Shown piece by piece: positions 17,723 to 51,024 of a stretch of 64,000 nt of DNA; position 1 is the first letter of the stretch; each line of letters starts with the position of its first letter. Location of the stretch: contig NZ_CP041186.1 in NCBI RefSeq assembly GCF_006517175.1, positions 2,817,001 through 2,881,000 of the forward strand. The letters are read 5' to 3'. The translations under genes were made by a program, and so were the position numbers. This stretch comes from Persicimonas caeni (GTDB lineage Bacteria > Myxococcota_A > Bradymonadia > Bradymonadales > Bradymonadaceae). The notes beneath the pieces are model-generated. The model was not told the DNA's origin, ran no database searches, and was given only the letters and a program-made list of their open reading frames with translations.

Positions 17723-18433
17723 ATGAAGTCAGGAATCATCCTCATTGCCGCCGCCGCAGCCACGCTGGCCTGCGCCTGCACCACCGTCGAAACCGCCACC
17801 GTCGACTACCGCGAAGGCGGCAAGATGGCCGTCTACGACTTCGCCATCGACGACGGCCACACCCTTCACGGCCCGTATCGATACTGGTCGGCCGAAGGCC
17901 AACTGCTCACCGACGGCCACTACGAAGACGGCTTGCGCCACGGCGCCTGGACCGAGTGGTACCAGAACGGCCAGAAGCGCTTCGAGGGCCGCTACGCCCA
18001 CGGCGAGCGCGTCGGCAAATTCACCCACTGGCGCTCCGACGGCCAGCGCACGCAGGTGGTCGACTATCGGGACGGCAAGTCTGCCCCCGTCGAACTCTAC
18101 ACCTACGTTCGCGACACAAGTTCGGATGGCGGTGCCGGGAAAATCAGCGACGACGCGCTGACAAAGGCCATCCGCAGCTTCATAAACCGCATCCAGAGCT
18201 GCTACGAGAAGAGCGGACTGCGCTACGACCAGAGCATCGGCGGCAAGATCGCCTTCACGATCACCGTCGACGTCACCGGTCACGCTACCGAGGTCGTACA
18301 TAAATCGTGGCTCGACCACCAACCCACCGAAACGTGTATGGTGGACGTGTTCTATCACGCCACCTACCCCAAGCCCCGGGGCGGCGAGGTCACATTCACG
18401 AAGACGTTCGTGTTAGAGGGCCGTGCGGACTGA
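17723..18433 (+). CDS. Lipoprotein with MORN repeats and AgmX/PglI-type C-terminus
   Basis: A 236-aa protein. The ATG at 17723 starts a lipoprotein signal (MKSGIILIAAAAATLACAC). Residues 45-115 hold MORN-variant repeats (GPYRYWSAEGQL, GAWTEWYQNGQKRFEGRY, GKFTHWRSDGQ). The C-terminal part follows the AgmX/PglI pattern (FINRIQSCYEKSGLRYD, GGKIAFTITVDVTGHATEV, CMVDVFYHATYPKPRGGEV). It is probably a periplasmic, lipid-anchored protein. It resembles the 11849 gene in its C-terminal domain only. Confidence 0.85.
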   Translation: MKSGIILIAAAAATLACACTTVETATVDYREGGKMAVYDFAIDDGHTLHGPYRYWSAEGQLLTDGHYEDGLRHGAWTEWYQNGQKRFEGRYAHGERVGKFTHWRSDGQRTQVVDYRDGKSAPVELYTYVRDTSSDGGAGKISDDALTKAIRSFINRIQSCYEKSGLRYDQSIGGKIAFTITVDVTGHATEVVHKSWLDHQPTETCMVDVFYHATYPKPRGGEVTFTKTFVLEGRAD

Positions 18434-19913: not shown

Positions 19914-19931
19914 GTGTACCTGAAAGACGCG

Positions 19932-22900
19932 ATGCTCGTGGAAATTCGAAAGCTGTTTCAATGCATCATCGCCTTAGTCCTCTCCGCGGCGGCGGTTTCA
20001 CTGCCCCGTAATGCCGCTGCCGATTGTGAGCTTGCCGAGCAAGCGGAAGCAGTGTCGGAGTCGACCATCAATTCGTTAAGCCCGGTGCAGCTTTATGACC
20101 TCAAGCACCTAGCAACGAGCTTGGACCGGGCCTCGCGCTTGTACCAACAGGACAGTAACCCCGGACAGCTCGAAACTCCCTTCAAATCGACCGCTTTGGC
20201 GGAATTTCGCCGCGATCTGAAGCGTGTCGTCACTCTCCAAACGCAAACGAGGACGAAAGCAGTCCACGCTCTACGGCAGGGGAACGCGTCCGTATTTTTC
20301 GAGGTGATCGACAAGGATGGGCTCGACGTCGACGTGGCTCCAACCGACGAGAACGGCCGTCCACATGTTGAAGTGAATCAACTGGCCGTCGAGCAAGCCT
20401 TCGTCATCTCCACTATCGGGCCGTATTTACCCGCTGACTTCGAGCATCGCGCGGACCTCGAAGCCCTCGTCGACGAGATGATCACCGCTTGGATGGACGC
20501 GTCGATCACGCTTGCCAAGCTCGAACTGCTCGCCCGCAGTCCGGCAGTGGTCGGACAGGTGTTCGAAATCGACCAAGGGTGCTTGCGACGCCAGCTCGAA
20601 CGCGCCGGTCGACCTCTGTCCCGCGAGACCGCCGACGAGGCCGAAGACCTGCTGCGCGCCCTCGCCGAACGGCGTAGACTGCGCGCCAAGTACCTCGAAG
20701 CACAAGCAGAACTCGTCGAGAACGGCGGGCGCTTGGTTCGCCGAGTGGAGACACTCTACCGAAACACGGTGGGAGCTCGCCTCGCGGCCATCAACGGGTT
20801 CTATGAAGCCCTCACGTCGACCAAGTACTACGACATCCCCGCCAGCGGCAGCCCTCGGCTGCGGTTGGAGATGCTCCCGATCGAGACTGGTGACTGGCAA
20901 GGAAAGCAAACTCGCGTGAGCGCGCGGGTGAGTCTCGTCACACAGAACACGAGCCAAGTGACCTACGAGGGAGTCCAAGCGAACGGAACAGCCGGGTCGG
21001 GTAGCCCCCGCCTGGAGGCGACCCACCCCCTCGGACTGGTCGTTCACGAGGTCGCCTTTTCGTGCGCCGAGGGCACATCCAAGAGTTGTACGCTCAAACT
21101 AGATCGCTTGCCAAAGCTCGGCTTTCGGCCCCGATTCGAGCGCAACCCGGCTCAGCTTCGCCGGTTGGCGGCGGCTCTGGGGCTGCCGCCCCAGTTGGGA
21201 GTGTCCATCGCCGGAGTGGACATCACCGAGCAAATTCACGGCTCGCAACTAACCTGGAAGGCCCATGCCAAGGTGCGCATCCCGCGCCTGAGCGGAGAAG
21301 CCGAGGAGTTGACCTTGGTACTCTTCGAGCACGGTGAGTTGCAGCCACTCGAGCAGGTTCGAAGCGCCATCCAACGCCGCGTTCGTAAGGTTTTGCAGAC
21401 TGACTTTTGCTCCGATCTCGGGCGTCAAGTCCTCTCGAAGCAGATCGGCGTCCAGATCGGCGACTGTTCGGCGGTGCAGTTGACCCAACAGGGGCTGAAA
21501 GCTGTAGTCACCATTCGCTGGAAGCTGCCCGACTCATCACACACGGTCGAAGTTTCAGGAACGTTGCGGATCCGCAACAACGACGGAGAAATCCAGGCGG
21601 ATATCATCGAGGGAAGTATCGACGCCGATGCCCTCCGCACCGCTTTACGCGACGAACTCGAAGACCACGTCGCCGCCCTTGTCGCGGCACTACCGGCCGA
21701 GACCCTTGCCGAGATCAACCGACTGGTGGGCGTAGCGACCGCCGAGCATCGCGCGGCCCTGATCACCGACGCGCTTGCATTCGAGGCGTCCGGTCGCCTC
21801 ACGCCGCCCAGGGTGTGCGCCCAGGGCAAGCTGCGCGAGGCCGACATCGGATGGGGATTCTGCGTGACGCCCGAGGGCAAGGTCACCTGGAGCACGCTGC
21901 CCGATGTGGAAGCACTCCTCGCCGCCATCCGCCGCCTCTTCGACCCCGAAGCGCTGCTGGTGCGCTCCATCGCCCACCAGAGTTGCGCAGCACTCGAAGA
22001 TACCACCTTGTTCGGCGACAGCCTCGCCATCATCAGCGCGTCTTCGTCCGACTCCGCCAAAGAAGCGGGCACCCCAACTTGTCGGTTCACCGCAAAGGTG
22101 GCGAACACGCGCACCGCGCTCGACGGCACGCAGGTTCGAGGCGCGGTGAGTTGGACAGACGGTCGAGTGCGCTGGAAGACCCTGCGCCTCGAAGCACGCA
22201 ACCTCGAGGAATTCCTCGACAAGCTCGTCCGCGCACGCCTCGACCAGTTCCCCGCCAAGCTGCCATTCGAACTGCGCGACGTTCGCATCGACCGCGGTAT
22301 GCTGGCGTTTCACGTCTACATCGATGTCTCGGAGTTGGCCCAAGCGTTCAACGCCGGCGAGGTGCGCATCGATTTTGTAAACGGACAGATCGAGCACCAA
22401 GGCTCGTTGAGCGACCTCACCTTCAGCTTGCTCGCGGGGCAACTGCAAGCGGCGCTCAACCATCATCTGGGAGGCACCAGCCTCGAACTGGGCGATGTAC
22501 GCATCGAACTGGCAGCCGAACCCGTCTCTCTGAGCATCAACGCACGAGACGAGTTCACGCTCTCGGTGACCGGTGATGTCGACTTCGACGGCGTGTTGCG
22601 CGTGCCCGTCGAGCTCCAATTGCTGCCACACATCGAGATTGCCAACCGTGATCACTTGGTCCAGACCGTGCTTCGGCGCCTGCTCGTCGGCAACCTCGCA
22701 AACCTCGGGCTCGGTTTTCTGGCCGGAGCAGATCCACCGATCAAGGTAGTCGACATCACCCCCGCCCCCGACCTGCGCCACATCGAAATCGAGTTCGATC
22801 TCGAGTTTCCCGTGTGGAAATTCAAGGTCGACCTGGACGGCCTCATTTTGAGCACGGCCGGACTGGAGTTTCCCGCCGAAATCGGCGCGCGTATTCCGGG

Positions 22901-25900
22901 CTATATCCCCGCCGGGCCGTTTTATCTGGCGCGGCCTGGCTTCTCGTACAACCGATTGACCGACAAGTTCTCGATCCTGACCGACATCATCTTCTCGCCG
23001 GGCACCGAGCACATCGCCAAGATCGACGCGCGCCTGACCGCCGGCTACGAGGCGGTCGCCTTTGCCCTACGTGGCACGCTGCGCCTGCTGGGGGTCATCC
23101 CGCTGTATGAGGTACGCGGCGACGTCGATTTCGAAACGGGTCGCATGGAGTTGGTCAGCGAGTCGGTGGGCTTTATCCGCAAGTTGGTGCAGTCCGACTC
23201 CAAGCTCATTGTCGACGGCTACGAGCAGACGTTCAGCCAAACCACTTCGCTGGGGGTGCTCGGCCTTTCGCTGACCCAAACGGAACTGGTCGGCGCGATT
23301 CGCGAAGGCATGTTGAAAGCCATCGACGATGTCAACCTTCTGGTCGGCCACGCCAACCTGCGTGTTCACGCCAAGCTCGACTCTTTGCGCGAGTGGCTCG
23401 GCGCGGGCAAAATCGAGCTGATGTACGGGCTGAAAGGAGGAGGGTTGGAGCTCTCGGCGCACGCCGTGGTGCTAGAGCTCACCGCGTTCGGTGTTGACAT
23501 CACCATCCGCGTACCCACGCTCTCGGCGCTCACTCCAGCTGTGCTACTCGATGCAATCGACCAAATCTTCGACGTCGGCTCCCTCTGGGATGCAATCAAG
23601 AACTTCGACGGCGACATCGTCGTCGATCTCGTCGGCGGCGCCTCGGGCGACGGCGAAGTCTCGGCCCGGGTCGGCGAAGGCAATGCGACGGTCGAGGCCT
23701 CAGGTGTCACTCGCCACCCCCTCGTCGAGCGCGCTGAGGGCCAGACGAGCGAGTCGAACGAACAAGACTCGTCGGACTACGGGCAGCGTCCGGGACCAGG
23801 ACCGTCCCCTCAGCCTCGCCCCGTCGACGCGGACGACGAACCGCCCTCTCCGTTCGAAGACTCGGCGCCGGTTGCAGACGAGGGTGACGAAACCGATGAA
23901 ACCACTGAGGGGCAACCGGGCGAGGATCTCGGTTTTTCCAAAGAGGGAGTGCCTGTGGTGCTACGCGAGATCCCGGGCAACGACGGAGTCCATCTCTGTC
24001 AATCCGATAGCGAGTACTGTCGGTATTACTTGCCGCCCAAGGCCGCCCAAAGCCTCGGTGGAGCCGGGAGCCATGCACGCATTCTGGCCGACTTCGGCGT
24101 TTGGAGCCCCTTTCCGAACAATCGCATCTGTTTCGGGCAAACGTGCCTGCACTTCGAGCTCCCCGGTGCAGCCAACCCGGTGTACCGACGCTGGGCGCGT
24201 CCCCAAATAGATTCCCAGGGGCGACCCCATCCGGTGTTCCAGGAGCCCTTTGCGCGAGCCCTGGTCCTACTCAGCTCGAAAGCGTTGATCGTCCACCCGA
24301 CTCATCGACCGCTCGGCTACTACCCCAACGGAAAGTTCGAGTGGTTCCCCTCTGGAGTCGACAAGACGGCCGGCGACCTGACGCGGTCCGTCTTCGCCGC
24401 CAAGGTCGGCACGAGAACCCGGAGAAAAGGCGCTGCTCAGCGACGATGGAACAGCGAGGATTCCGCCCTGGCGGTGCTCGAGAACTGGGTGCGCGACCTC
24501 GAACTGACCGAGTGGCACCCGCGCCATCAAGTCATGCTCGAAGTCACCTGCGCGAGCCAACCGACCGGAGATGCCCTGTTGTTCCTGCGCGCCAAGCGGT
24601 CCCCCGAGACCATTCGCTACGCGATCAGGTCCGCTCAAGAATTCCGCCACATCGATACCGTCGAGCAAAAGTGCTTGAAGAAAGATGCACTTACCGACGG
24701 CTGCGGGCGTTCTCTGGTGCGGTTGTGGATGCAGACGTTTCAGTACTGCGGCGATGAGACACAACCCCTGCAGATGCGCGAAGAGATCCTCGAGGAGTCG
24801 CTCTCGAAGCCTCGCCGCTACACCATCGGAGATCTTGAGGGAGAGGAGGTCTTTGCTCGGTTCGACCACGATGAGGGCCGCAAGGCAGACGCAAGATTCC
24901 TCGAGATGGCCACTACCACCATCGACCTGCACTACGAAGGGATCTTCAACTCGACGATCCGCAACCCGGCTTCGCTTTATGACCATCTGGTCGCCAATGG
25001 GAGCATCGGCAATGCGGAGATCGACCTGATCAACCACTCGGTCAGGACAGTGTTGAAAGGACTTCCAGCGCCGCGATTCGGCCGCGTCGCCGCCTGTTCG
25101 GCCAAGGGCTCGGGCAGCGGGCCGTGCAAGTACAGCTACGCGCATTCACGCCCCGGGATCACACTGAGCAAATCAACCCCGCAGGACTCCCAGACGGGCA
25201 CACACCGCACCTACCGAGTCAAAGAGGGCCACGTCGAGTACGACTTGGAAGTCGACTCCACGACCTTCCGCCTCTTTGGCGGCCAACGTCTCGAGGACGC
25301 CCAGGGGAATATCAACGACCGGATGGACCACACGAGGCTCTCCGGGCCAACGCGCTTCGAGGCAATCTTACGGTTCATGTTTTCGGAGCGACAGCGTTCC
25401 GCCCACTTCCCTCAACTGCTCTGGGTCGGCCCCGACAACAGTGTGTACTTCACGACGAACCCTCGCAGCACCGACAAAGGCCAGACGCCCGCGATGCTCC
25501 ACATCTTCCAGCCCGGAGAGAGTACTCCGCGACGCGTCGAGTTGGTGGCCCCCTTCCCCGGTCATATCTTGCCTGGGAGCGCAACTCCACCAACAAGCGA
25601 ATCGACCTCCACTAAGTCACTCCAACCACTCTGGACGCGCGACAGTGTCCCGAAAGCACTGCGTCGGGTCCACGGCAAGCTCGTAAGAGGGCTGTCGACC
25701 GACAGCGAACTGCCTCGCCTGAGCTTGGCATCCATGGGCGCTGAAGAGCCCACCGCTTGGCTGCGCCAAAACAACCAGATGATGTTCGTGCCTCCCGAAG
25801 GCACGATCGTGACCACCAAGCTGGCACTGTTGGAGAAGAATTGGGCCACCGCCGCCAAGTGCGGCCTCTTCAAGCCCGAGCTCCTGCGCCGCTACCGCGC

Positions 25901-26090
25901 GCGACTCGACGCACGGCCCCAGAAGTACAAAGACACGCCTACCAGCCGCTGGACGGACGCGGCGATCCCGCTGCTCATCGAGCTTGTCTCGTTGAGTCGC
26001 TGGCGAGACTCGATGCAAGTCCACCCGTCGTTCCTTCTCGCCGAACACCACCGCCAGAACCTTGTCTGTATCGGCAACGGAGATAACTAG
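19932..26090 (+). CDS. Giant exported protein, first gene of a TolQ/MotA-like motor operon
   Basis: A 2052-aa protein. The preferred ATG at 19932 gives a signal peptide (CIIALVLSAAAVSLPRNAAA, cleaved near residue 30); a GTG at 19914 is an alternative. Residues 30-1260 are beta-strand-rich with recurring helical modules (such as ALRTALRDELEDHVAALVAA and RALLVGNL-type segments). This pattern could be a repeated lipid-binding or AsmA/TULIP-like fold, but I cannot assign it. A Ser/Pro/Glu-rich linker (about 1266-1330) leads to a C-terminal domain of about 720 aa with paired Cys (CQSDSEYC, CFGQTC), which suits an oxidising compartment. There is no lipobox or sortase/T9SS tail. It is followed after 5 bp by the channel-subunit gene, so the products probably work together in the envelope. 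Confidence 0.85.
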   Translation: MLVEIRKLFQCIIALVLSAAAVSLPRNAAADCELAEQAEAVSESTINSLSPVQLYDLKHLATSLDRASRLYQQDSNPGQLETPFKSTALAEFRRDLKRVVTLQTQTRTKAVHALRQGNASVFFEVIDKDGLDVDVAPTDENGRPHVEVNQLAVEQAFVISTIGPYLPADFEHRADLEALVDEMITAWMDASITLAKLELLARSPAVVGQVFEIDQGCLRRQLERAGRPLSRETADEAEDLLRALAERRRLRAKYLEAQAELVENGGRLVRRVETLYRNTVGARLAAINGFYEALTSTKYYDIPASGSPRLRLEMLPIETGDWQGKQTRVSARVSLVTQNTSQVTYEGVQANGTAGSGSPRLEATHPLGLVVHEVAFSCAEGTSKSCTLKLDRLPKLGFRPRFERNPAQLRRLAAALGLPPQLGVSIAGVDITEQIHGSQLTWKAHAKVRIPRLSGEAEELTLVLFEHGELQPLEQVRSAIQRRVRKVLQTDFCSDLGRQVLSKQIGVQIGDCSAVQLTQQGLKAVVTIRWKLPDSSHTVEVSGTLRIRNNDGEIQADIIEGSIDADALRTALRDELEDHVAALVAALPAETLAEINRLVGVATAEHRAALITDALAFEASGRLTPPRVCAQGKLREADIGWGFCVTPEGKVTWSTLPDVEALLAAIRRLFDPEALLVRSIAHQSCAALEDTTLFGDSLAIISASSSDSAKEAGTPTCRFTAKVANTRTALDGTQVRGAVSWTDGRVRWKTLRLEARNLEEFLDKLVRARLDQFPAKLPFELRDVRIDRGMLAFHVYIDVSELAQAFNAGEVRIDFVNGQIEHQGSLSDLTFSLLAGQLQAALNHHLGGTSLELGDVRIELAAEPVSLSINARDEFTLSVTGDVDFDGVLRVPVELQLLPHIEIANRDHLVQTVLRRLLVGNLANLGLGFLAGADPPIKVVDITPAPDLRHIEIEFDLEFPVWKFKVDLDGLILSTAGLEFPAEIGARIPGYIPAGPFYLARPGFSYNRLTDKFSILTDIIFSPGTEHIAKIDARLTAGYEAVAFALRGTLRLLGVIPLYEVRGDVDFETGRMELVSESVGFIRKLVQSDSKLIVDGYEQTFSQTTSLGVLGLSLTQTELVGAIREGMLKAIDDVNLLVGHANLRVHAKLDSLREWLGAGKIELMYGLKGGGLELSAHAVVLELTAFGVDITIRVPTLSALTPAVLLDAIDQIFDVGSLWDAIKNFDGDIVVDLVGGASGDGEVSARVGEGNATVEASGVTRHPLVERAEGQTSESNEQDSSDYGQRPGPGPSPQPRPVDADDEPPSPFEDSAPVADEGDETDETTEGQPGEDLGFSKEGVPVVLREIPGNDGVHLCQSDSEYCRYYLPPKAAQSLGGAGSHARILADFGVWSPFPNNRICFGQTCLHFELPGAANPVYRRWARPQIDSQGRPHPVFQEPFARALVLLSSKALIVHPTHRPLGYYPNGKFEWFPSGVDKTAGDLTRSVFAAKVGTRTRRKGAAQRRWNSEDSALAVLENWVRDLELTEWHPRHQVMLEVTCASQPTGDALLFLRAKRSPETIRYAIRSAQEFRHIDTVEQKCLKKDALTDGCGRSLVRLWMQTFQYCGDETQPLQMREEILEESLSKPRRYTIGDLEGEEVFARFDHDEGRKADARFLEMATTTIDLHYEGIFNSTIRNPASLYDHLVANGSIGNAEIDLINHSVRTVLKGLPAPRFGRVAACSAKGSGSGPCKYSYAHSRPGITLSKSTPQDSQTGTHRTYRVKEGHVEYDLEVDSTTFRLFGGQRLEDAQGNINDRMDHTRLSGPTRFEAILRFMFSERQRSAHFPQLLWVGPDNSVYFTTNPRSTDKGQTPAMLHIFQPGESTPRRVELVAPFPGHILPGSATPPTSESTSTKSLQPLWTRDSVPKALRRVHGKLVRGLSTDSELPRLSLASMGAEEPTAWLRQNNQMMFVPPEGTIVTTKLALLEKNWATAAKCGLFKPELLRRYRARLDARPQKYKDTPTSRWTDAAIPLLIELVSLSRWRDSMQVHPSFLLAEHHRQNLVCIGNGDN

Positions 26091-26095
26091 CAGTC

Positions 26096-27709
26096 ATGAA
26101 AGACAACGAATCCAACTATATCGATCGCTTGCGCCGGTTTCTGCTCCCACGCCGTCTCGCCTTCTACTCGGTGGTCTGGCTGCTCTTGGCTCTCTTTGTC
26201 GTCCCGTTTGCCTACGACCGCGGCGCGCGCCTCTACACCGCCAGCGTCGAGTATGCCTACCAACGTTTGAACGTGGCCATCAGCCAGGCGCCGGTGTTGA
26301 CCACCGTCATCGAGAAAGACCCCACGATTCAAGGCGGCCCCAACGGCCAGGCTAAGCCGATGACCCGAGAGCTGCTTTGGCAGATCTGGCAACTGCTGGG
26401 CATCATCGAAAACGACGTCGCCCCCGGTGATATCGACCCGAAATTCCGCTCGGCACACGGCATTGGCGGCTCGAACGATTCGGGCGAAAACCCCGGCGTG
26501 AAGACGGATGTCCCCGGGGTGGAGCTGTTGGTCCGTTTGGCTGCCAAGGTGGGGAGGGATGGCCCGCTCGACGAGCAAGAGATTGCCGCCGCCAAGCGCC
26601 ACCTCGTCCAACTGGTGGCTCGCGCCCCCTACGCGCTCGACGACTACACCGAGTGCATCGCCAGCGAGGATTTGTGGAGGAGCTCACCCGGCGAGCCCCT
26701 CCCGAAAGGCCATGTCGACGACTACAGTGGTCCGCTGTCGCTCTCCCAATGGCAGAAGGTCTACGACACGGCCGCCCCTTTCAGCTTCTCCGAGGTGACC
26801 GCCTTTTTGCAGGCCTCCTCCGATAAGATCGAGCACGAGCCCGCCTGCCAATATCCCGCCGGCCCCAGCCAGGCCTACCGGGTCCCCTGGCGAGCTGAGG
26901 CTTACTGGGGCACCTCCTATCCGGACCGAAGCGTGTTGGACACTCTCTTCGAACACTTTAGCGTCCAAGAGCACTACACGGCCCAAGCGGTCGACGACGA
27001 AGAGATCTTGGAAGAGCGCCGACAGCTCACCGAGTACGCCCGACAACTGTTGGTGCTCATCGAAGAGGACGCCGAGGTCACCAAGAGCCGCTACCACGTG
27101 AGCATCGTCTTCGGCCCCGAGCAGTGGGTCATGTGGATCTTTCTGTGTCTGATCGGCTATCTACTGCTCGCCCACCTGCTCACGGTGGTGTCGTGCTCGG
27201 GCATACTCGCCGCCCTGCGCCGACAACCCGACGATCCTCTCGTGACCGGCATGCCCTCTGATGAAAAGGTCAAGTCCTCGGTGCGCGGTCAGCTATGGCC
27301 GATTCGCTGGCTTATCGCCGCGCTGCCCTCGGTGGGCTTTATCGGAACTGTGCGTGGCATGAGCGGAGCGCTGGCCGACGCCGACGCGATCGTCAAGGCG
27401 CGCACCGCCGTCGAGCAGGCCTTTGCCATCTCGAACGTCGCCTCCACGCTGGCGCTCGCGTTTACGACCACGCTGGTCGCCCTGGTTTTCGCGCTCATCG
27501 CTTCCCTCGCCTACGAGCTAGTCATGGCCGCCGAGCGCATGGTGTTCGAATCTCGCTGGTTTGAGTGGAAACCATGCAACGAGACTGACGACGCAGCCGT
27601 CGAGACCGCCGACGCCTCCCACGAAGAGGCACCCGCTGCCGAGGGCACCCTCGCCAGCGTCGAATCGGAGAGCCAAGACGACGATTCGAAGGCCGAGGAA
27701 GAAGCATGA
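26096..27709 (+). CDS. TolQ/ExbB/MotA-family proton-channel subunit with large insert
   Basis: A 537-aa inner-membrane protein. TM1 is at about 21-40 (LAFYSVVWLLLALFVVPFAY) and TM2 at about 343-366. A family signature stretch follows at about 401-475, with LPSVGFIGTVRGMSGAL and then STLALAFTTTLVALVFALIA, the Gly-Thr-Val and Thr-Thr features of TolQ/ExbB/MotA channel helices. About 300 residues between TM1 and TM2 form an extracytoplasmic domain, which is unusual for the family. A Glu/Asp-rich tail ends the protein. These subunits usually form pentamers around a B-subunit dimer and use ion flow to do work in the envelope. It overlaps the next gene by ATGA. Confidence 0.9.
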   Translation: MKDNESNYIDRLRRFLLPRRLAFYSVVWLLLALFVVPFAYDRGARLYTASVEYAYQRLNVAISQAPVLTTVIEKDPTIQGGPNGQAKPMTRELLWQIWQLLGIIENDVAPGDIDPKFRSAHGIGGSNDSGENPGVKTDVPGVELLVRLAAKVGRDGPLDEQEIAAAKRHLVQLVARAPYALDDYTECIASEDLWRSSPGEPLPKGHVDDYSGPLSLSQWQKVYDTAAPFSFSEVTAFLQASSDKIEHEPACQYPAGPSQAYRVPWRAEAYWGTSYPDRSVLDTLFEHFSVQEHYTAQAVDDEEILEERRQLTEYARQLLVLIEEDAEVTKSRYHVSIVFGPEQWVMWIFLCLIGYLLLAHLLTVVSCSGILAALRRQPDDPLVTGMPSDEKVKSSVRGQLWPIRWLIAALPSVGFIGTVRGMSGALADADAIVKARTAVEQAFAISNVASTLALAFTTTLVALVFALIASLAYELVMAAERMVFESRWFEWKPCNETDDAAVETADASHEEAPAAEGTLASVESESQDDDSKAEEEA

Positions 27710-28320
27710 GCGACAGCTCCACCGAAGAGTCGAGCGATCTAGGAGCGGGCTCGACGCTCAGCTTCATCGACGTGATCACGTGCGGTTTCGGCGCGGCAAT
27801 CATCTTGATGATGGTCTACAGCACGCTGCCGCGCATGGGCGAGAGCATCGCCCACGGCGGCCAGAGCGGTGGCAACGCCGCGATTCCGGCACGAGGCATC
27901 CCCGGCGACCTCGAAGACAAGCTCGGCGAGTTTACCGCTGTGCGGGTTGTCGAGGTTCGCCCGATCGACCCCGCCCACCGCTTCCCGCCTCAGACGATGA
28001 GCGCCAGGTGGTCAGGGCGCGCCACCGACGAGTGCCGCTCGTATCGCGACATCTACGAGCACACCATCGCCTTTGTCTTGCTGTGCCCCCAGGGCCTCAT
28101 CACCACCGAGACGCAGACGATCGACCTCGCCCGTCAAGGAGGTGGCGTACCGGTCCAAGTACGCGCTCGCGCCTACCAGGGACCGTGGAACGCGCTCACA
28201 CCCGCCGAGACCACCTGGCGCAGCTTGCCGGCGCCCAACTACGAGCGCGCCGTGCGCTTTCACATCAGCAGCAAAGAAGGCAAGCGTGTGCGCTACCGCA
28301 CCGGCGGAGGACAGCCATGA
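27706..28320 (+). CDS. ExbD/MotB-like subunit 1 (DVxxCGFGA type)
   Basis: A 204-aa protein with a short cytoplasmic N-terminus, one TM segment (about 18-40) and an extracytoplasmic domain of about 160 aa. The TM begins SFIDVITCGFGAAIILMMVY. Asp22 sits where ExbD/TolR/MotB proteins carry their proton-binding Asp (PLIDV-type motif), but the Cys-Gly-Phe-Gly-Ala run is specific to this pair of proteins. There is no OmpA peptidoglycan-binding domain. It is coupled by ATGA overlaps to the TolQ-like gene and to its sister gene, so the products probably sit in one complex. Confidence 0.8.
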   Translation: MSDSSTEESSDLGAGSTLSFIDVITCGFGAAIILMMVYSTLPRMGESIAHGGQSGGNAAIPARGIPGDLEDKLGEFTAVRVVEVRPIDPAHRFPPQTMSARWSGRATDECRSYRDIYEHTIAFVLLCPQGLITTETQTIDLARQGGGVPVQVRARAYQGPWNALTPAETTWRSLPAPNYERAVRFHISSKEGKRVRYRTGGGQP

Positions 28321-28952
28321 GCCTGCACCGAAACAGCTCTCTGGTCAGCCTGCTCGACGTATTCAGCTGTGGTTTCGGCGCGGCGATTTTGCTCGGGTTC
28401 ATCTTCTCGGTCAGCCGCGACGACGCCGAGCCGCCGACCTATATGGAGGACTTCGCCACCATCGAGGTGACCGCCTCCGATCCGCACGCCTTGCTACAAT
28501 TCGTGCTGATCCCCCCGAACGGCGGCCCGCCGCTCTTCATCGATCCGAGTGACCGAGCCGGCCACGGCCGCGAGGCAGTGTTGAAGGCCAAGCAGGTGCC
28601 GGTGCCGATCACCTACTTCACCTACGGCGGCAGCCCGCAGGCCCACGGCGGACTCAAGCTGACCAATCACGAAACCGGCACGGTGTCCAACGCCCAAAGC
28701 CGGCGCTATTTGCTCTACATCACCTCGGTCATGTCCGGCCAATGGCGCCTCGGTGTGCGCTACTTCAATCGCAGCGGCGACGAACTTGACGGGGCGAATC
28801 GACACGCCGCCCTATCCCAACCGGTCGAGATCGAGCTCGACATTGATTGGCTCGGAGGCCGACTCGACAATGTCAGGTCGTGCACGACCTCCGAGCTCTA
28901 CTTGGGTGAGACCACCCTCTGTACCGTAAACTTCAATGAGGAGAAGCAATGA
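28317..28952 (+). CDS. ExbD/MotB-like subunit 2 (DVxxCGFGA type)
   Basis: A 211-aa protein starting at the ATG at 28317, inside a longer open frame. The TM segment (about 9-32) reads SLLDVFSCGFGAAILLGFIF, closely parallel to the previous protein, with Asp14 as the candidate ion-binding residue. The extracytoplasmic domain differs from that of its sister and is probably beta-rich (ITYFTYGGSPQAHGGLKL, RYLLYITSVMSGQWRLGVRY). Two distinct B-subunits with one A-subunit suggest a heterodimeric stator core. It is coupled by ATGA overlaps on both sides. Confidence 0.8.
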   Translation: MSLHRNSSLVSLLDVFSCGFGAAILLGFIFSVSRDDAEPPTYMEDFATIEVTASDPHALLQFVLIPPNGGPPLFIDPSDRAGHGREAVLKAKQVPVPITYFTYGGSPQAHGGLKLTNHETGTVSNAQSRRYLLYITSVMSGQWRLGVRYFNRSGDELDGANRHAALSQPVEIELDIDWLGGRLDNVRSCTTSELYLGETTLCTVNFNEEKQ

Positions 28953-29461
28953 AACGGACCATTTTCGCCATGTTACTCGTCTTGCTGTGGGCCTCGCCGG
29001 CAGCCGCCGATGACTTTTCCGAGTGGAGCTGGGTGGAGGCCAACTGGAGCCCGTGCGAAGGCGTAGGGGTTCATGGCTCCTATCGCGTCACGGCGCGCGC
29101 CAAGCTCGAAAGTGCGGGCGACGAAGTCAAGATATCGAATCTGACCGTCGTGGTTTCCATCACGCACGCCGCAGGTAAAGTCACCGCCACCGGAAAGGTT
29201 GCGGTGCGCAAAGACGGCGAGACGACGCAGACGGTCACCCTCGAGAAGCCTTGGTACCCGGTAATCGCTCCGACCCACGCCGGTCCTATGCTCACGCTCC
29301 CAAGGGTCAAGAGCTCCGAGTCACCCTCACCGGACGATGCTCAGGTGTTGACCGTCCCCAAAGGGGCCAAGCTCGAGTTCACGATCACCGCGATGGCCGA
29401 CACTTCCAGCGGGGCTTGTGTGATCGGTAACAGTGAGCATGAAGTCGCGCTAGACTCCTGA
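28949..29461 (+). CDS. Small exported protein, last gene of the motor operon
   Basis: A 170-aa protein with a clear signal peptide (MKRTIFAMLLVLLWASPAAA). The mature part of about 150 aa is beta-rich, with three Cys. It overlaps the upstream gene by ATGA, tying it to the TolQ/ExbD-like complex. It is probably a periplasmic accessory factor. No family recognised. Confidence 0.8.
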   Translation: MKRTIFAMLLVLLWASPAAADDFSEWSWVEANWSPCEGVGVHGSYRVTARAKLESAGDEVKISNLTVVVSITHAAGKVTATGKVAVRKDGETTQTVTLEKPWYPVIAPTHAGPMLTLPRVKSSESPSPDDAQVLTVPKGAKLEFTITAMADTSSGACVIGNSEHEVALDS

Positions 29462-42159: not shown

Positions 42160-44046
42160 CTAATTTGGAAGCTCCCTGCCGTCTTCACCCACAGAACGAG
42201 CCAAGACCTCCTCGAGCAAATTGGCGATCGGTCTGAGCTTCTCCGGTTCATTCGCTAAGAGCCACTCAGTCATTAACGGCGAATGCAAGGTCTTTCGCAA
42301 TTCCAAGGTGCTTTCACTGACGAAGTCGAACACGTGGTCGATAACCTCGGCTGCGTGAACGCTCTCCAACAGCCAAGTCTCATTATGCTCCCACTCTTGT
42401 GAGCTAGCATCAGGGCAGTGCTCGCGGTAGCGTCGATCCAATTCATTTTTGAGCTCGGTTTCAACGGTCTCTAATTCGACTGAGACATCGTTGGCGTACG
42501 GATCTTGCTCGATGGCATATTTGATCGCCTCGGGCACGAGCAAAAAGTTCTCGTACATCCGAGCGTCCAAGAAGCGAATCCGCTCGACATCTGCGCCGAC
42601 CTTACTCCCCTTGCGCTTCAAGTCCTCGACCTTCCGGCTCGACTTGTCCTCAAGATCGAACACATAGGCGGCCGCCGTCGGCAACAAACTGTGACTGGAA
42701 CTCAGATTTTCGTAGATGTCGAACGTATTCTCGGCGTCCTTCCCGTCGAAGTCCCCGGTGTGCTTGACCGCCCGAATCGCGGTACCGGCGAGCTTGACGT
42801 CCGTAAGCGCCTCTAGAATCATCGGGAAGCACTCCTGCTCGGTCTCGCCTTCGACCCACACGATGCGGTCGACGCCGAACACATCCGACAGCCTCGAACC
42901 CAGGGCCATTAACGCCTTGGTGATCTGGTCGCGCTGGTCCGGCTCGATGGTCCGCAGTTCGCTGACGCCATTGTCGATCTCGGTCAGAATGATCGAGGAA
43001 GACCGCGCGCTGCTCACGATCAGCGGCGAGTGCGTCGAGACTACGAATTGATGCTGGTCTCCATACTCGGCGATGATCTCCATCAGCGCGCGGGCGGCGG
43101 TGGGGTGCAGAAAGCTGTTGGGCTCATCGATGAGAATGGTGCGCGGGAAGCGCGATGTCACCAAGATGTACAGAATACACAGAACCTGGGCGACGCCGCT
43201 GCCGCATTCATCGAGGGCGAAGGTGAGATCGCGGCGGCCGTCGAACTTCCAGATTTCAATTCGAACCCGACCGCCGTCTCGAGCTGCTGTCACCTCTCGA
43301 ATGGAGGGAAAAACACGCCTGACGAGCTCATTGTAGTGCTTGACCCTCCGATAACCTTCGCTCTGAAGGTCCTGCACACATGCTGCGAGATTTGCGCCGT
43401 TCGGTTGAAGTTCGGTCGATACATTGACATCGCAAACGCCCTTTACATCGCGCACCGAATCGAAGCGATAGACTCGGCCGAGATGTTGCATTCCGAGCCG
43501 AAAAGCGAAGTGGTGCTTGCTAGCTACACTTGACCTGTCGTGCAGACTGATTTCGGACTTGTCTCTGTCATAGCTGTAACGCGCCATCGCCGCTTTGGAA
43601 TTCGCTTCCAGCATCAAGGCAAGTCCGAACGGCACCTGGGGCTCCGTGCGAAGAAATCGCTGAATACCACTGCGGCCCTCGAAACAAAACTTGATGCGTT
43701 CTTGCTCATGTATCCACCTCCAGAAGTGAAGGACCGGGTTGTCCTCGTCGCCACGCTGCTGGTGGACCCAAAATGGCTGGTTGGATAGATGTTGCCGAAG
43801 CTCTTCTTGACGGCACGAGATGACAAACTCAAAACTACTTGGTTTAGACGGTTTATCGCCGTGGGAAGGCACACTTCGTAGACTTCGGTGAGGCATGTTC
43901 GAAGCGCTCACCTGCATCGCCTCCAAGAAGGCAGTCTTCCCGGCGTTATTCTTCCCGACAAGTAGGTTCACGCCCAACGAAAGCGGAATGCTCTCGGTCT
44001 CCCAATAGCTCTTGTAGCTGCGAATCTTGAACTCACTGAAATACAT
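42160..44046 (-). CDS. OLD-family ATPase/TOPRIM nuclease 1
   Basis: A 628-aa protein. Residues 1-370 form a SMC/ABC-type ATPase: Walker A GKNNAGKT (31-38), Walker B ILIDEPNSFLHP, and the switch region FVVSTHSPLIVSS. From about 390 a TOPRIM domain follows (IVWVEGETEQECFPMI with the metal-binding Glu, then VFDLEDKSS), completing the overcoming-lysogenization-defect (OLD) architecture. OLD proteins are ATP-regulated DNA nucleases, often in phage defence (for example GajA). It starts 36 bp after the second OLD gene, so the two are cotranscribed. A broken copy of both lies at 29508-29955. Confidence 0.9.
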   Translation of the reverse strand: MYFSEFKIRSYKSYWETESIPLSLGVNLLVGKNNAGKTAFLEAMQVSASNMPHRSLRSVPSHGDKPSKPSSFEFVISCRQEELRQHLSNQPFWVHQQRGDEDNPVLHFWRWIHEQERIKFCFEGRSGIQRFLRTEPQVPFGLALMLEANSKAAMARYSYDRDKSEISLHDRSSVASKHHFAFRLGMQHLGRVYRFDSVRDVKGVCDVNVSTELQPNGANLAACVQDLQSEGYRRVKHYNELVRRVFPSIREVTAARDGGRVRIEIWKFDGRRDLTFALDECGSGVAQVLCILYILVTSRFPRTILIDEPNSFLHPTAARALMEIIAEYGDQHQFVVSTHSPLIVSSARSSSIILTEIDNGVSELRTIEPDQRDQITKALMALGSRLSDVFGVDRIVWVEGETEQECFPMILEALTDVKLAGTAIRAVKHTGDFDGKDAENTFDIYENLSSSHSLLPTAAAYVFDLEDKSSRKVEDLKRKGSKVGADVERIRFLDARMYENFLLVPEAIKYAIEQDPYANDVSVELETVETELKNELDRRYREHCPDASSQEWEHNETWLLESVHAAEVIDHVFDFVSESTLELRKTLHSPLMTEWLLANEPEKLRPIANLLEEVLARSVGEDGRELPN

Positions 44047-44082: not shown

Positions 44083-45798
44083 TCAATTCCACTCCCGAAT
44101 CTTCTCACACACTTCCTCCAACCGCTCGGCCAAATCGGCGGTCTCCTCGAGCATCGCTTTGGTGAAGTGCTTCTTGACCGCGTTGGCGTGACCGACCTTA
44201 TCGAAGGTCTTGCGCCCCCGCGCCGCATTGATCTGCTCCGGATACGAATCGAACGGGCCGACCGGCTCGAAACCTTCGTCATCCAGCAGCGCGCGCGTTG
44301 CCTCGACCGGGATATAGTTCTCGACCTCGCGGCCGGCCGTCACCCAGCAGTACATCTGGGTGTCATCCATCTCTTCGGCGATGCGCGCCAACCGCGGCTT
44401 GAGTTCGCTACCGGCCTCAGATCGGTCGCTGTCCGCCATCAAAATGGCGTGGCAGTTGACCCGCAACACCTCGACCAGGTCGTCGACCGAGGCCCCCAAC
44501 TCCTCGGCCGTGTAGTGCGCCAACAACGACCCACCATAAAAGACACATTGATAATGACTCCCCTCACGAAGCTCGCCGTCGGTCCACAGCTCGACCCACC
44601 TGTTGAAGTACAGCCGGTCCGACGGCCCTTCCAACCACACGATGCAATTCGACTGCAGCAGGTCGCTGGCGCGCACCGCCAGGTCGTCCAAGATGGCCCG
44701 CTGCTGGGCATACGTGCTCACCTGGTGCACCGTCGCCTGGCCATCCTCGCGCTGAACGTGCAGGATCTGCGCGTCATCGTCCTGACTGAACATGTCGATG
44801 ACCACGTTGGAATGCGTCGTCAAAAAGAAGTGGCTGCCGTGCTCGTCGGCGAAGTTGCGCAGGTAGCGGAACAGACGGCGCTGCAGCGCCGGGTGGAGGT
44901 TGTTTTCGAGTTCTTCGAAGCCGAAGAAGTACTTGTCGGGCTCTTTTGGGTTTTTGCTGTGAGGGACGAGGTACAGGAAAGTCAAAACGAGCAAAACCGT
45001 CTTCAAGCCACTGCCCGAATCCGACAGGCGAACCAGGGGTTTGCCGTCTTCCTCGAGGAAGACTTCCCAGGTTTCGTTCTTGTCGTGCTTGGTCATGATG
45101 CGCGTGAAATACGCATCGCTCTCGAAGATCTCGTTGAGCCCGTCGAGCATCGACTCCTCGACCAAGTCGTGCGGTAGCTCTGCACTCGTCAGGTAGTTGC
45201 GAATGAGGTTGGTCGCACCGCGCCCGTTAGGGTCGACATCGAGCTCGCCCGAAGCGGGCTCAGGACGAACGTCCCGCTCGCTGGTGAGTCGCACGAAATG
45301 GTGGCCCATGAATGGATCGAAGAGATACTTCTCGAGATTGGTCCATAACGCACCGGCAGACGGTGGCCCCGGCGCCCCGCAGCCTCCATGAAATGCAGTG
45401 TAGGACCCGACCGATCGCAGTGTTCGCTCACGAGCAACCAGACCGCTAGAATCGCGTTCTTGTGGAGTCCACTGCGCTTCTTCACCACAAAAGCGCATCC
45501 CGAAGTCGAAGGTAGTTCCATAATCGTCCTCCGGGAGTTCACGCATCGGAAATACGGCATTGATATCCTCCACCGTTAGCTTCTTATGCAGCCGCAACTC
45601 CCGCGGAAGCTCGGTGGAGACATCGTGGCCCCAAGCCCCTCCTGCAAGCGCTCGCTCGACCAAGTCGAGCAAGCTTGACTTGCCGGCGCTGTTCTTCCCA
45701 ATGATGACGTTGACCGGATAGATACGTTCGAAGCCCTGCCATTCCTCACCAAAACACTTGTGATTCCGAAACCGGAAGCCATGATTTGCAAAAACCAT
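44083..45798 (-). CDS. OLD-family ATPase/TOPRIM nuclease 2
   Basis: A 571-aa protein of the same architecture as its neighbour but only distantly similar. Walker A is GKNSAGKS (34-41), the Walker B region FFGFEELENNLHP, and the switch HFFLTTHSNVVIDMF. The TOPRIM domain starts at about 388 (IVWLEGPSDRLYF), with the acidic pair in HAILMADSDRSEAGS. The C-terminal helical part contains GREVENYIPVEATRALL. It lies 97 bp downstream of the RT-nitrilase gene on the same strand. It is probably a nuclease that works with OLD 1, since the pair is kept together in both the intact and the relic copy. Confidence 0.9.
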   Translation of the reverse strand: MVFANHGFRFRNHKCFGEEWQGFERIYPVNVIIGKNSAGKSSLLDLVERALAGGAWGHDVSTELPRELRLHKKLTVEDINAVFPMRELPEDDYGTTFDFGMRFCGEEAQWTPQERDSSGLVARERTLRSVGSYTAFHGGCGAPGPPSAGALWTNLEKYLFDPFMGHHFVRLTSERDVRPEPASGELDVDPNGRGATNLIRNYLTSAELPHDLVEESMLDGLNEIFESDAYFTRIMTKHDKNETWEVFLEEDGKPLVRLSDSGSGLKTVLLVLTFLYLVPHSKNPKEPDKYFFGFEELENNLHPALQRRLFRYLRNFADEHGSHFFLTTHSNVVIDMFSQDDDAQILHVQREDGQATVHQVSTYAQQRAILDDLAVRASDLLQSNCIVWLEGPSDRLYFNRWVELWTDGELREGSHYQCVFYGGSLLAHYTAEELGASVDDLVEVLRVNCHAILMADSDRSEAGSELKPRLARIAEEMDDTQMYCWVTAGREVENYIPVEATRALLDDEGFEPVGPFDSYPEQINAARGRKTFDKVGHANAVKKHFTKAMLEETADLAERLEEVCEKIREWN

Positions 45799-45894: not shown

Positions 45895-48800
45895 CTAGTC
45901 ATCACGCTCCCCAAACCCTGGCGGCGGGGATTTGAAGTTGCCACCATCAGGCAGCGTCTCTCCCATCCACTGTCTCTTGCTCCTCTCCACAGCCCACTCC
46001 ACGCCGTTTTGTTGAGCCTCCTTCAACGCCCGCACCGGAAACTCCACGTCAGCGACCACGTGCAGGTTGTTGCCGCGAATTCGCGCGATTTCCTTGCGCT
46101 GCGAGTGCCTCGGAGACCAGGCGAACGACCCGCCGTATGAGCCGTGATTCGTCACGACAACATTGGCGTAGCTTTCGTACGCCCGCACCCAACTTAGCTT
46201 ATCGTAGAGGTCTACATCCTTGTTGAACGCACTGAGAACGAGGTGCAGAACCTCACCACGAAGATTCATCCACGGCGTCGGGTCTAGAAGATCCGCACAG
46301 ATGCCGACAGAAAAGTCACCCCACTTGGGATGAAGAAACCGGTACCATTTGCGACCCGGCAGAACCTCAAAAGAGGTCGTTTTCTTTGAACTCGACTTGA
46401 TCGTCGCATTTAGAGCCTGCGTGAATCCATGCTCCAGATGCGCCGGCGTCGGCTTTCGAATGCGGAACTCTCGAGTGAGCCGATATCCATGTGTTTGCTC
46501 GTGGGTCATCGGAACGATCAACACCGCCTCGTTGACGAGAAAACGCTTGCTAATAGTCGACGTCACGTGCGGCGGTGTCACGCACCTCAACGGGCTCCAA
46601 ACTAAACCTGCGAGAACACTGCGCCCGGTCTGACGAACGATGGAGCGGAGGTAGCCGGTCTCAGTGGTTGGGACGACAAGCTCAGGAAAGACGATTAATC
46701 CCTCGGAGGAACCGGCGAGGGTACTCTTCCCGTCGGCCTCGCGCATCGCAGTGGACCAAATCTGATGGCATACCTCCTGTATTTCGCGCCGTGACAGCGC
46801 TGGGAAGCGACGTCTGAGTGTACTCCAATCCGGGCTGGCGTCGATTTGGCCGATTCTTACTGGCAACTCATCGGCCAACTTCTCCAACGAACCGAGCCTC
46901 AGTTTTTCCGGCAGAATCCGTTTATCAACTGGCGGCGGAGGGAACCCACAAATCGACCTTACTTCCTCGAAGTCTTCATTCGCTTCGAGCCGAACGTCGA
47001 CTCTCTCGTATAGGAAATCTCGCGCACCAGCTCGGTCCAAGTCGAGCGCGTCTAACCGGTCGATGAGATTTTGGAGAGGGTCGTTATCCAGCTTGGTCTG
47101 TTGCCTTTTTAGTTCGCCGCCGCCATCTTCTAGCCAACGGAGCAGCGCTTCAACTAAGCGCCATGTCTCGGGCGTGAGATGAACGCGTCTACGCAGCCAC
47201 CAGCGATCCGCAAAGGGGACAACTCCAAAGCCATTGTCAAAGACTCTGTCGAGGAAGCGTTCGGAGCCTTCGACACAGACGAAAAAGTGTAGCGCGTGAA
47301 CCCAGGTTTCATAATTCGCCCAAAACCCATCGCGCCTTGCAGGTTTTTTGAGAACTAACGGCAGAAAGTAGAGCGGGTGTGGCAAGATCTCCCAGTCCTC
47401 GGGGCGACTCGAAGTGGCGATCCAACTCTTCGGACTCACATCTTCGAGAATAGAACGACTTTCTCCGCGCTGGTGTCTGCGCCCCTGAGCAAGGATCTTC
47501 TCAGGCGCATTGTGCAGCCTGTTGTCATTGGACTCATCTTCCGACCGAGCAACCAGCCACGTAGGTGGGTATTCGCTGGCATGAGCCTGTTCTGACTCGT
47601 CGACCGAAGGTGCTGAGATTGCCTCGCGAAACATTGCCAGCGCGATCCGCATGGGAAGCCCAATCGCAGCTGCCTCGGGCAAGTTGAGCCGCCAACCCGT
47701 GAGCGAGTCGTGCGACGTTGCTCTTCCCCACAGTACCCGGTGAACGGTAGGTTTTGTCTCGGAAAACAGACCCGTCTGGTGACCTGGCCGATGCAAGTTT
47801 AGCGAATGAAGCAGAAGCCGAACATCTGCGTAAGTGTGCAGCGCGTGATACGCCTCGAGAGAATGGAACTCTCCGCCAGCACCCTCGAAAATCGACGTAA
47901 GCAGCTGCGTCTGAAACTGAGGCTCCTTGCCCTCCTCACCACCGTCCTCATACCAACTTCGCGCGGCTTCGGCGGGCACGTGGAGCAACCATCCCAAACG
48001 TCTTGCGAGGGCAATCCCCTCTTTCGACTTCCCCAACTCTGCCAGGGCCTCTTGAATCTCGGCAGGGGGAGAGTTGTCTGGTGACGGTACGAGTTTCAAG
48101 AGAACCCACGGGTTGATTTCAGCAGCATCTGCGTCCCGCGCGACTAACCGGCCATCCTGGCGTAGGATTGCCCGCGTCACGCCTTGGTGTTGAAACAATG
48201 CCTCGTGATCGGGAAGACGCAGTTCAGATAGTTCGTCGTGCGCTTTTGCGTGAGCAATTGTCAGGAAAGGATTGCCACTCACAGTAGCGATACAGGAACG
48301 AGCCACCGTCGCGCGGGTTGTCGCCGCAAGCACCGCTTGACATATCGCGGACGCCTCCCACGGCCGGATTCCCCAAGGCGAGTTTACGTCGAAACCTGGG
48401 TACAGGACTTCCGCCCATCGGTCGAAATCACCCAGCCACTCGAGGAGTCGCGGAATTTCCGAACTGGGTACGGCTCGAAACAACCAGGAGCGCGATCTGG
48501 GAGAGGACTTCTCGAGCGGCGACCACGTGGACGGATCGGCCGCTTCGATACGCCGCAATTCCTCATAGCGCAGCGCAGCGATGGCTTGGCCGAGACAACT
48601 CCAGAAGTGGGCGCGAAGAAAGGAAACGACCAAATGGACGCGCTCACCGGTCACAGAATCGTTGCCACATGCCCGTTTTTTTCCGCCGGCATACCAGCGC
48701 GCCGCCCAATCCTCTTGCCAATCTTTTTCATCTTCCTTCGGAGATGGAAGCCGAATATCATTCAGAATTTCGATCAACCACTCCGTTGCGCGCTCGCGCT

Positions 48801-50838: not shown

Positions 50839-51024
50839 CGTTTGACTCACACAAACTTTAGTCAATCCAATCAACCATTGCACCAACACAACAACTGCGT
50901 TGATCTTCAACATTTGTATGTCGGAACCGCTACGCGTGAGTCTCTGGGGCCCCGGCAGCCATACTTGCAATCTTAGTACTTCAAGCCGCCAAGCTGGCGG
51001 CACATCATCGACGGCTCTCCTACC

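Follow-up and report, generated by a model that had tools for sequence, protein, structure and literature searches.

A putative envelope motor operon with two different B subunits and a giant exported protein in Persicimonas caeni

Results

The operon and its setting

Within the 64,000-nucleotide stretch of the Persicimonas caeni genome analysed here (contig NZ_CP041186.1, positions 2,817,001 to 2,881,000; hereafter the window, to which all coordinates refer unless otherwise marked), direct reading of the open reading frames places five same-strand genes at 19932-29461 (+) as a unit, with the following features:

19932..26090, + strand: giant exported protein, 2,052 aa, signal peptide at residues ~1-31
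23724..23951, + strand: Pro/acidic low-complexity linker in the giant, residues ~1265-1340, by direct reading
26096..27709, + strand: A subunit, MotA/TolQ/ExbB-type channel, 537 aa, four transmembrane (TM) helices
26219..27127, + strand: insert of A, residues ~42-344, ~300 aa, replacing a ~34-residue loop of its relatives
27302..27541, + strand: TM3-TM4 channel core of A, residues 403-482
27335..27358, + strand: GFIGTVRG signature of the two-B family, in TM3 of A, by sequence pattern
27706..28320, + strand: B1 subunit, 204 aa
28317..28952, + strand: B2 subunit, 211 aa
28949..29461, + strand: small exported protein, 170 aa, two cysteines

The giant and A are separated by a 5-bp spacer (26091-26095) in which no terminator-like site was found, and the A-B1, B1-B2 and B2-small protein junctions are three 4-bp ATGA overlaps. 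This agrees with the initial annotation, which had described five genes joined at 4- to 5-bp junctions, opening with an exported protein of about 2050 residues and closing with a small exported one; signal peptides are indeed found on the first and last proteins. A GTG at 19914 is an alternative possible start for the giant. Third-position GC is 0.75-0.82 in 5/5 of the operon genes and matches that of the neighbouring genes, from which we conclude that the five ORFs are genuine resident genes. Moreover, the region just upstream (~19.4-19.9 kb) holds no convincing gene, and downstream the first good ORFs are on the opposite strand, so that the five genes make up a self-contained unit. There are exactly two cysteines in each of the periplasmic parts of A, B1 and B2 and in the small protein, the pattern that oxidised periplasmic domains should show. 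When all five proteins were searched against Pfam, NCBIfam and PADLOC at E<=1, MotA_ExbB was the sole significant match, and no model in these collections names the giant, B1, B2 or the small protein.

Some other genes of the window deserve mention. About 1.5 kb upstream of the operon lies a putative exported protein with MORN_2 repeats (17723-18430, +), and a MORN-repeat protein likewise flanks one locus of the two-B family described below (L065). Downstream, a 1,702-aa ORF (45898-51003, -) has a PADLOC reverse-transcriptase/nitrilase (UG5/DRT-type) match at 3e-38 and no Pfam match at E<=0.001, and is a probable defence reverse transcriptase; beside it two adjacent AAA_21/AAA_15 (OLD/Gaj-like) ATPases (42163-44046 and 44086-45798, -) probably complete a defence cluster.

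The channel subunit

The A subunit matches Pfam MotA_ExbB (PF01618) at 1.2e-7 and 31.9 bits against a curated cut-off of 22.9, which puts its assignment as a channel beyond chance. By hydropathy its helices fall at ~15-41 (TM1), ~345-370 (TM2) and ~403-482 (TM3/TM4), and the cytoplasmic TM2-TM3 loop has only ~30 residues. The usual MotA topology puts the TM1-TM2 segment on the periplasmic side, and for this reason we read the insert as periplasmic; both the profile match and the hydropathy thus bear out the initial description of a TolQ-like channel with an extracytoplasmic insert of about 300 residues. TM3-TM4 contains the motifs GFIGTVRG and AFTTTLVAL, and residues T418 and T459 are invariant in an alignment of 24 sequences.

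Searches of related genomes with A returned matches confined to the channel domain, with no match to the insert outside the host genome, and plasmids gave no match to A. PDB sequence searches with A gave nothing meaningful and those with the A-family profile gave nothing at E<=0.01, and among NCBIfam models at E<=1 A had no Gld match and one weak tolQ match alone. In an AlphaFold model built from 24 alignment rows the core is confident (pLDDT 80-95) and the insert is mostly below 70, with several stretches below 50. Residues 345-496 of this model align with TolQ, ExbB, PomA and ZorA at Z ~8-9, where unrelated helical proteins score 7.5-8.7, and Foldseek returned E >0.1, hence true relatives and helical noise are not told apart by this search.

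The B subunits

B1 and B2 each begin with a single TM helix, SFIDVITCGFGAAIIL with D22 in B1 and SLLDVFSCGFGAAILL with D14 in B2, followed by periplasmic domains of ~165 and ~178 aa, respectively. Both carry the membrane helix motif D-x3-CGFGA, and the TM helix is all they have in common. Compared with the B profiles of the two-B family by hhalign, the helices match over 22-27 residues, the aspartate among them, at E ~1e-7 to 1e-9; the alignments cover those helix residues only, and the coiled coil and VWA domain of the family are absent from B1 and B2. The ExbD/TolR profile (PF02472), which matches 8 other places in the host genome, matches neither B1 nor B2 at E<=1, and no Pfam match to a MotB plug or OmpA-like peptidoglycan-binding domain was found in either. 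A search of 142 relatives with B2 returned helix and chance matches only. The initial label 'ExbD/MotB-like' therefore holds for the architecture of the B subunits but not for their profile, and the initial statement that TolR/ExbD or OmpA-type partners are missing accords with the profile searches of the operon.

A family of motors with two B genes

Beyond the host we find that GFIGTVRG in A, D-x3-CGFGA in both B proteins and the order A-B1-B2 recur together, in Pseudomonadota, Myxococcota, Thermodesulfobacteriota, Verrucomicrobiota and Acidobacteriota. The A alignment, run against 85,000 species genomes, yielded 80 loci, nearly all of them an A gene followed by CGFGA-type B genes, usually two. 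GTVRG is present in 79/79 A genes with a readable motif at the loci drawn from genome contigs, and its R was not part of the scan patterns that returned them. Since our simple ORF caller mis-called several GC-rich loci, the B genes were found by motif. Used as a DNA pattern, GFIGTVRG occurs in 12 of 377 phylum genomes, namely in the operon's A and 11 others, all in A-type ORFs, and those loci examined at length adjoin CGFGA genes; it is found in 0/20 other genomes of the host's family and nowhere in the rest of the class sampled. The DNA pattern for D-x3-CGFGA likewise picks out the operon's B1 and B2 together with paired B genes adjoining A genes elsewhere in the phylum. The seven other MotA_ExbB genes of the host have other residues at the GTVRG position. 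In a channel-domain tree of 93 columns, on which the operon's A has a long branch (2.46) and its exact place is uncertain, this A falls beside the two-B family (93/69) and far from the host's seven Tol/Exb/Mot-type genes (100/99).

The operon shares with the two-B family (loci L058-L146) the A-B1-B2 order, GFIGTVRG, D-x3-CGFGA and an A subunit with four TM helices. Its relatives differ in that their A proteins are ~265 aa long and lack the large insert (537 aa with it in the operon), their B1 (~365 aa) and B2 (~331 aa) carry the coiled coil and VWA domain, and a PEGA/FGE-sulfatase protein and lipoproteins, neither found in the operon, often lie nearby; the giant and the A insert in turn occur in none of the relatives examined. 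Because the VWA and coiled-coil domains and the marker neighbours were tested for and are missing, the sequence features argue that the operon is a divergent relative of the GTVRG/CGFGA family and not a typical member. We found no description of this widespread family in the open literature searched, and apparently it has yet to be described experimentally.

The surroundings of the relatives are informative in their own right. At L067, L110, L138, L145 and L065 the protein upstream of A has a PEGA/FGE-sulfatase match (Pfam, L065) or a GldK match (L067), the latter being the best NCBIfam match of the one protein tested (5.6e-26); such neighbours of two-B A genes suggest that a GldKLM-like logic may exist outside Bacteroidota. 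A Ser/Thr kinase is also present at some two-B loci, as is another unnamed ORF that separates A from B1. This intervening ORF (~340-490 aa; L059:10513-11544, L110:10294-11511, L129:4404-5873, in locus coordinates) begins with an N-terminus like IELNDxG..., has no Pfam match where scanned (L059, L110), and to the eye is possibly an actin/Hsp70-type ATPase.

Other A genes in the phylum form a second group, after which come two-member B genes with the helices SLFPFLSVLACVIGTL and LDSLLDTMANVVGIL. In this type of pair (L027, L028, L031, L033, L035) the B1 helix SLFPFLSVLACVIGTL lacks the aspartate and the B2 helix LDSLLDTMANVVGIL has it, so that such an asymmetric axle would have one ion site only. 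As this second type exists besides the CGFGA family, motors with two different B proteins seem, from their gene content, to be common outside Tol, Exb and Mot. The host genome itself has an AglRQS-like arrangement elsewhere (G000:C1:5117274-5119098), in which a MotA_ExbB gene precedes two ExbD-profile matches. A survey of MotAB homologues from 2025 noted that the non-flagellar group is highly diverse and carries added domains of unknown nature; VWA, PEGA and heterodimers go unmentioned in its main text (PMC12505986).

The giant exported protein

After its signal peptide the giant has no further hydrophobic helix, and no TM anchor, lipobox or recognised outer-membrane signal was found in it. 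Past the signal peptide's hydrophobic stretch it contains 22 cysteines, and its linker divides it into parts of ~1,230 and ~710 residues. Searched in two pieces against 142 relatives and against plasmids, it found itself and one 52-residue match at E 0.001, which we judged to be chance. A PDB sequence search gave nothing meaningful, and internal repeats were not convincing, with best local scores of 49 as compared with 40 for shuffled sequences. AlphaFold modelling of residues 401-1265, run with no homologues, gave pLDDT 39 and pTM 0.23; the task and fold of the giant, as modelled, are not well supported. Examination of gene order in other genomes, which the initial annotation had proposed, divides its picture of the operon: A-B1-B2 recurs, but the link to the giant is found at no other locus examined. 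As no homologous locus keeps the giant with the motor, their partnership rests on one operon.

Discussion

One described system to set beside the operon is AglRQS, the Myxococcus gliding motor, which the initial comparison with Tol, Exb, Mot, Zorya and Gld had left out. AglRQS is the described two-B case, a single A protein combined with two B proteins that carry a TM aspartate, and whether the latter form hetero- or homodimers is stated to be unknown (PMC9389320). Our operon likewise has one A and two B proteins, whereas AglQ/S are described with TolR-like peptidoglycan-binding domains, which sets them apart from B1 and B2 with their lack of an ExbD/TolR match, and the Glt partners of AglRQS have no counterpart in the operon. 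With TolQR-TolA and ExbBD-TonB it shares the channel core of A, and differs in its two different B proteins, its large periplasmic insert and its lack of ExbD/TolR; TolA and TonB gave no Pfam or NCBIfam match in it. GldKLM of type IX secretion is similarly a motor tied to periplasmic partners, yet no protein of the operon, the giant included, matches GldK, GldL, GldM or other Gld profiles (NCBIfam, E<=1), in contrast to the two-B relatives with their GldK-like FGE-sulfatase protein. Similar to the operon, ZorAB of Zorya combines a MotA-like with a single-TM subunit; the operon lacks the long cytoplasmic tail and effector genes, and ZorA, ZorB and effector profiles gave no PADLOC match at E<=1.

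We think it reasonably likely that the operon encodes an inner-membrane, ion-driven motor of 5:1:1 stoichiometry (A:B1:B2) acting on the giant in the periplasm. The motor core, of which we read the channel family, the export signals and the family signatures, is well supported, and judged by these sequences it would work like a 5:2 motor. In TolQ and ExbB ion conduction involves two threonines of A and one aspartate of B, and their counterparts here are presumably T418 and T459 of A, D22 of B1 and D14 of B2. By this analogy the simplest interpretation is a functional ion channel whose ring holds a single copy each of B1 and B2. Five A subunits would surround this pair in the inner membrane, ions would pass between the TM3/TM4 threonines and the two aspartates, and their flow would make the A ring rotate or shift with respect to the axle. 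The inserts of the five A subunits, ~300 residues each, would form a periplasmic crown beside the two B domains. The target of this complex would be the giant, whose length suffices to span the periplasm and which may act as a transmission or an effector directed at the cell wall or outer membrane, with the small exported protein as a putative accessory. As the first gene of the operon, the giant is the obvious candidate target of the crown or axle.

Several readings differ from this one in what they make of the giant. It may be a mere transcriptional neighbour of a core that works independently, which would fit its absence from every related A-B1-B2 locus examined, but its 5-bp spacing to A across a junction with no terminator-like site, and the co-occurrence of insert, new B domains and giant in the host operon only, make this improbable. 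Alternatively, the giant could consist of beta-groove modules in series (TULIP- or AsmA-like) and ferry lipid or glycolipid through the periplasm in a transfer energised by the motor. This would account for beta-rich stretches that by eye alternate with amphipathic helices (e.g. residues 555-600 and 755-800), for 3-4 strands plus a helix repeated in the low-confidence AlphaFold model, and for a size that would span the periplasm. However, the model's scores do not establish a fold, the AsmA, TamB and TULIP families are unmatched in Pfam at E<=1, and both a PDB sequence match and clear internal repeats are lacking; we hold this proposal to be doubtful, and take the modelled strand-helix alternation as a lead for a beta-groove protein, nothing more.

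Other readings start from the biology of the host and the window. P. caeni YN101 is reported to glide and prey (PMC7188933), and together with the one-A, two-B composition of AglRQS and the GldK-like protein of the two-B relatives this could point to a gliding or predation motor, in which the giant would be a track protein at the surface or in the periplasm, on the model of AglRQS or GldLM. We find this unlikely, given that 20 other genomes of the host's family, presumably predators too, lack the operon, that B1 and B2 fall outside the ExbD profile, and that neither an adhesin repeat nor a secretion signal was recognised in the giant. It is very improbable that the operon is a phage defence system akin to Zorya whose effectors are unusual: the reverse transcriptase-nitrilase-like gene and the two OLD/AAA-type genes 13-22 kb downstream would favour it, yet they lie on the other strand beyond more than 12 kb of other genes, the operon has no cytoplasmic effector, and none of its five proteins has a PADLOC match at E<=1.

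Returning to the ion-driven motor acting on the giant, the initial claim of an undescribed energised envelope machine is in part upheld. It is a reasonable inference from topology, and the profile search set beforehand as its refutation placed B1, B2 and the giant in no described motor family (Pfam, NCBIfam, PADLOC), but the core shares its signatures with a widespread A-B1-B2 family. What is novel is thus the variant, with its insert, its exchanged axle domains and the giant as its partner. In a bolder version, to which we give little credence, a 5:1:1 ion-driven motor whose periplasmic crown is built in would drive by mechanical means a giant of some 2,000 residues that spans the periplasm, moving for example lipid or polymer between the membranes; if true, such a coupling of motor to cargo would be without described precedent.

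Mot, Tol, Exb, Gld, Agl and Zorya share one kind of membrane engine, with a different attachment in each, and the operon would add an attachment of a new sort to this class of motors. Through it we also came upon a widespread A-B1-B2 family marked by a pair of diagnostic motifs, in which the presence of two B genes at nearly every locus makes the question of two different axles per ring, posed for AglRQS (PMC9389320), directly testable. Taken together, the operon looks like a new variant among the machines that power the bacterial cell envelope.
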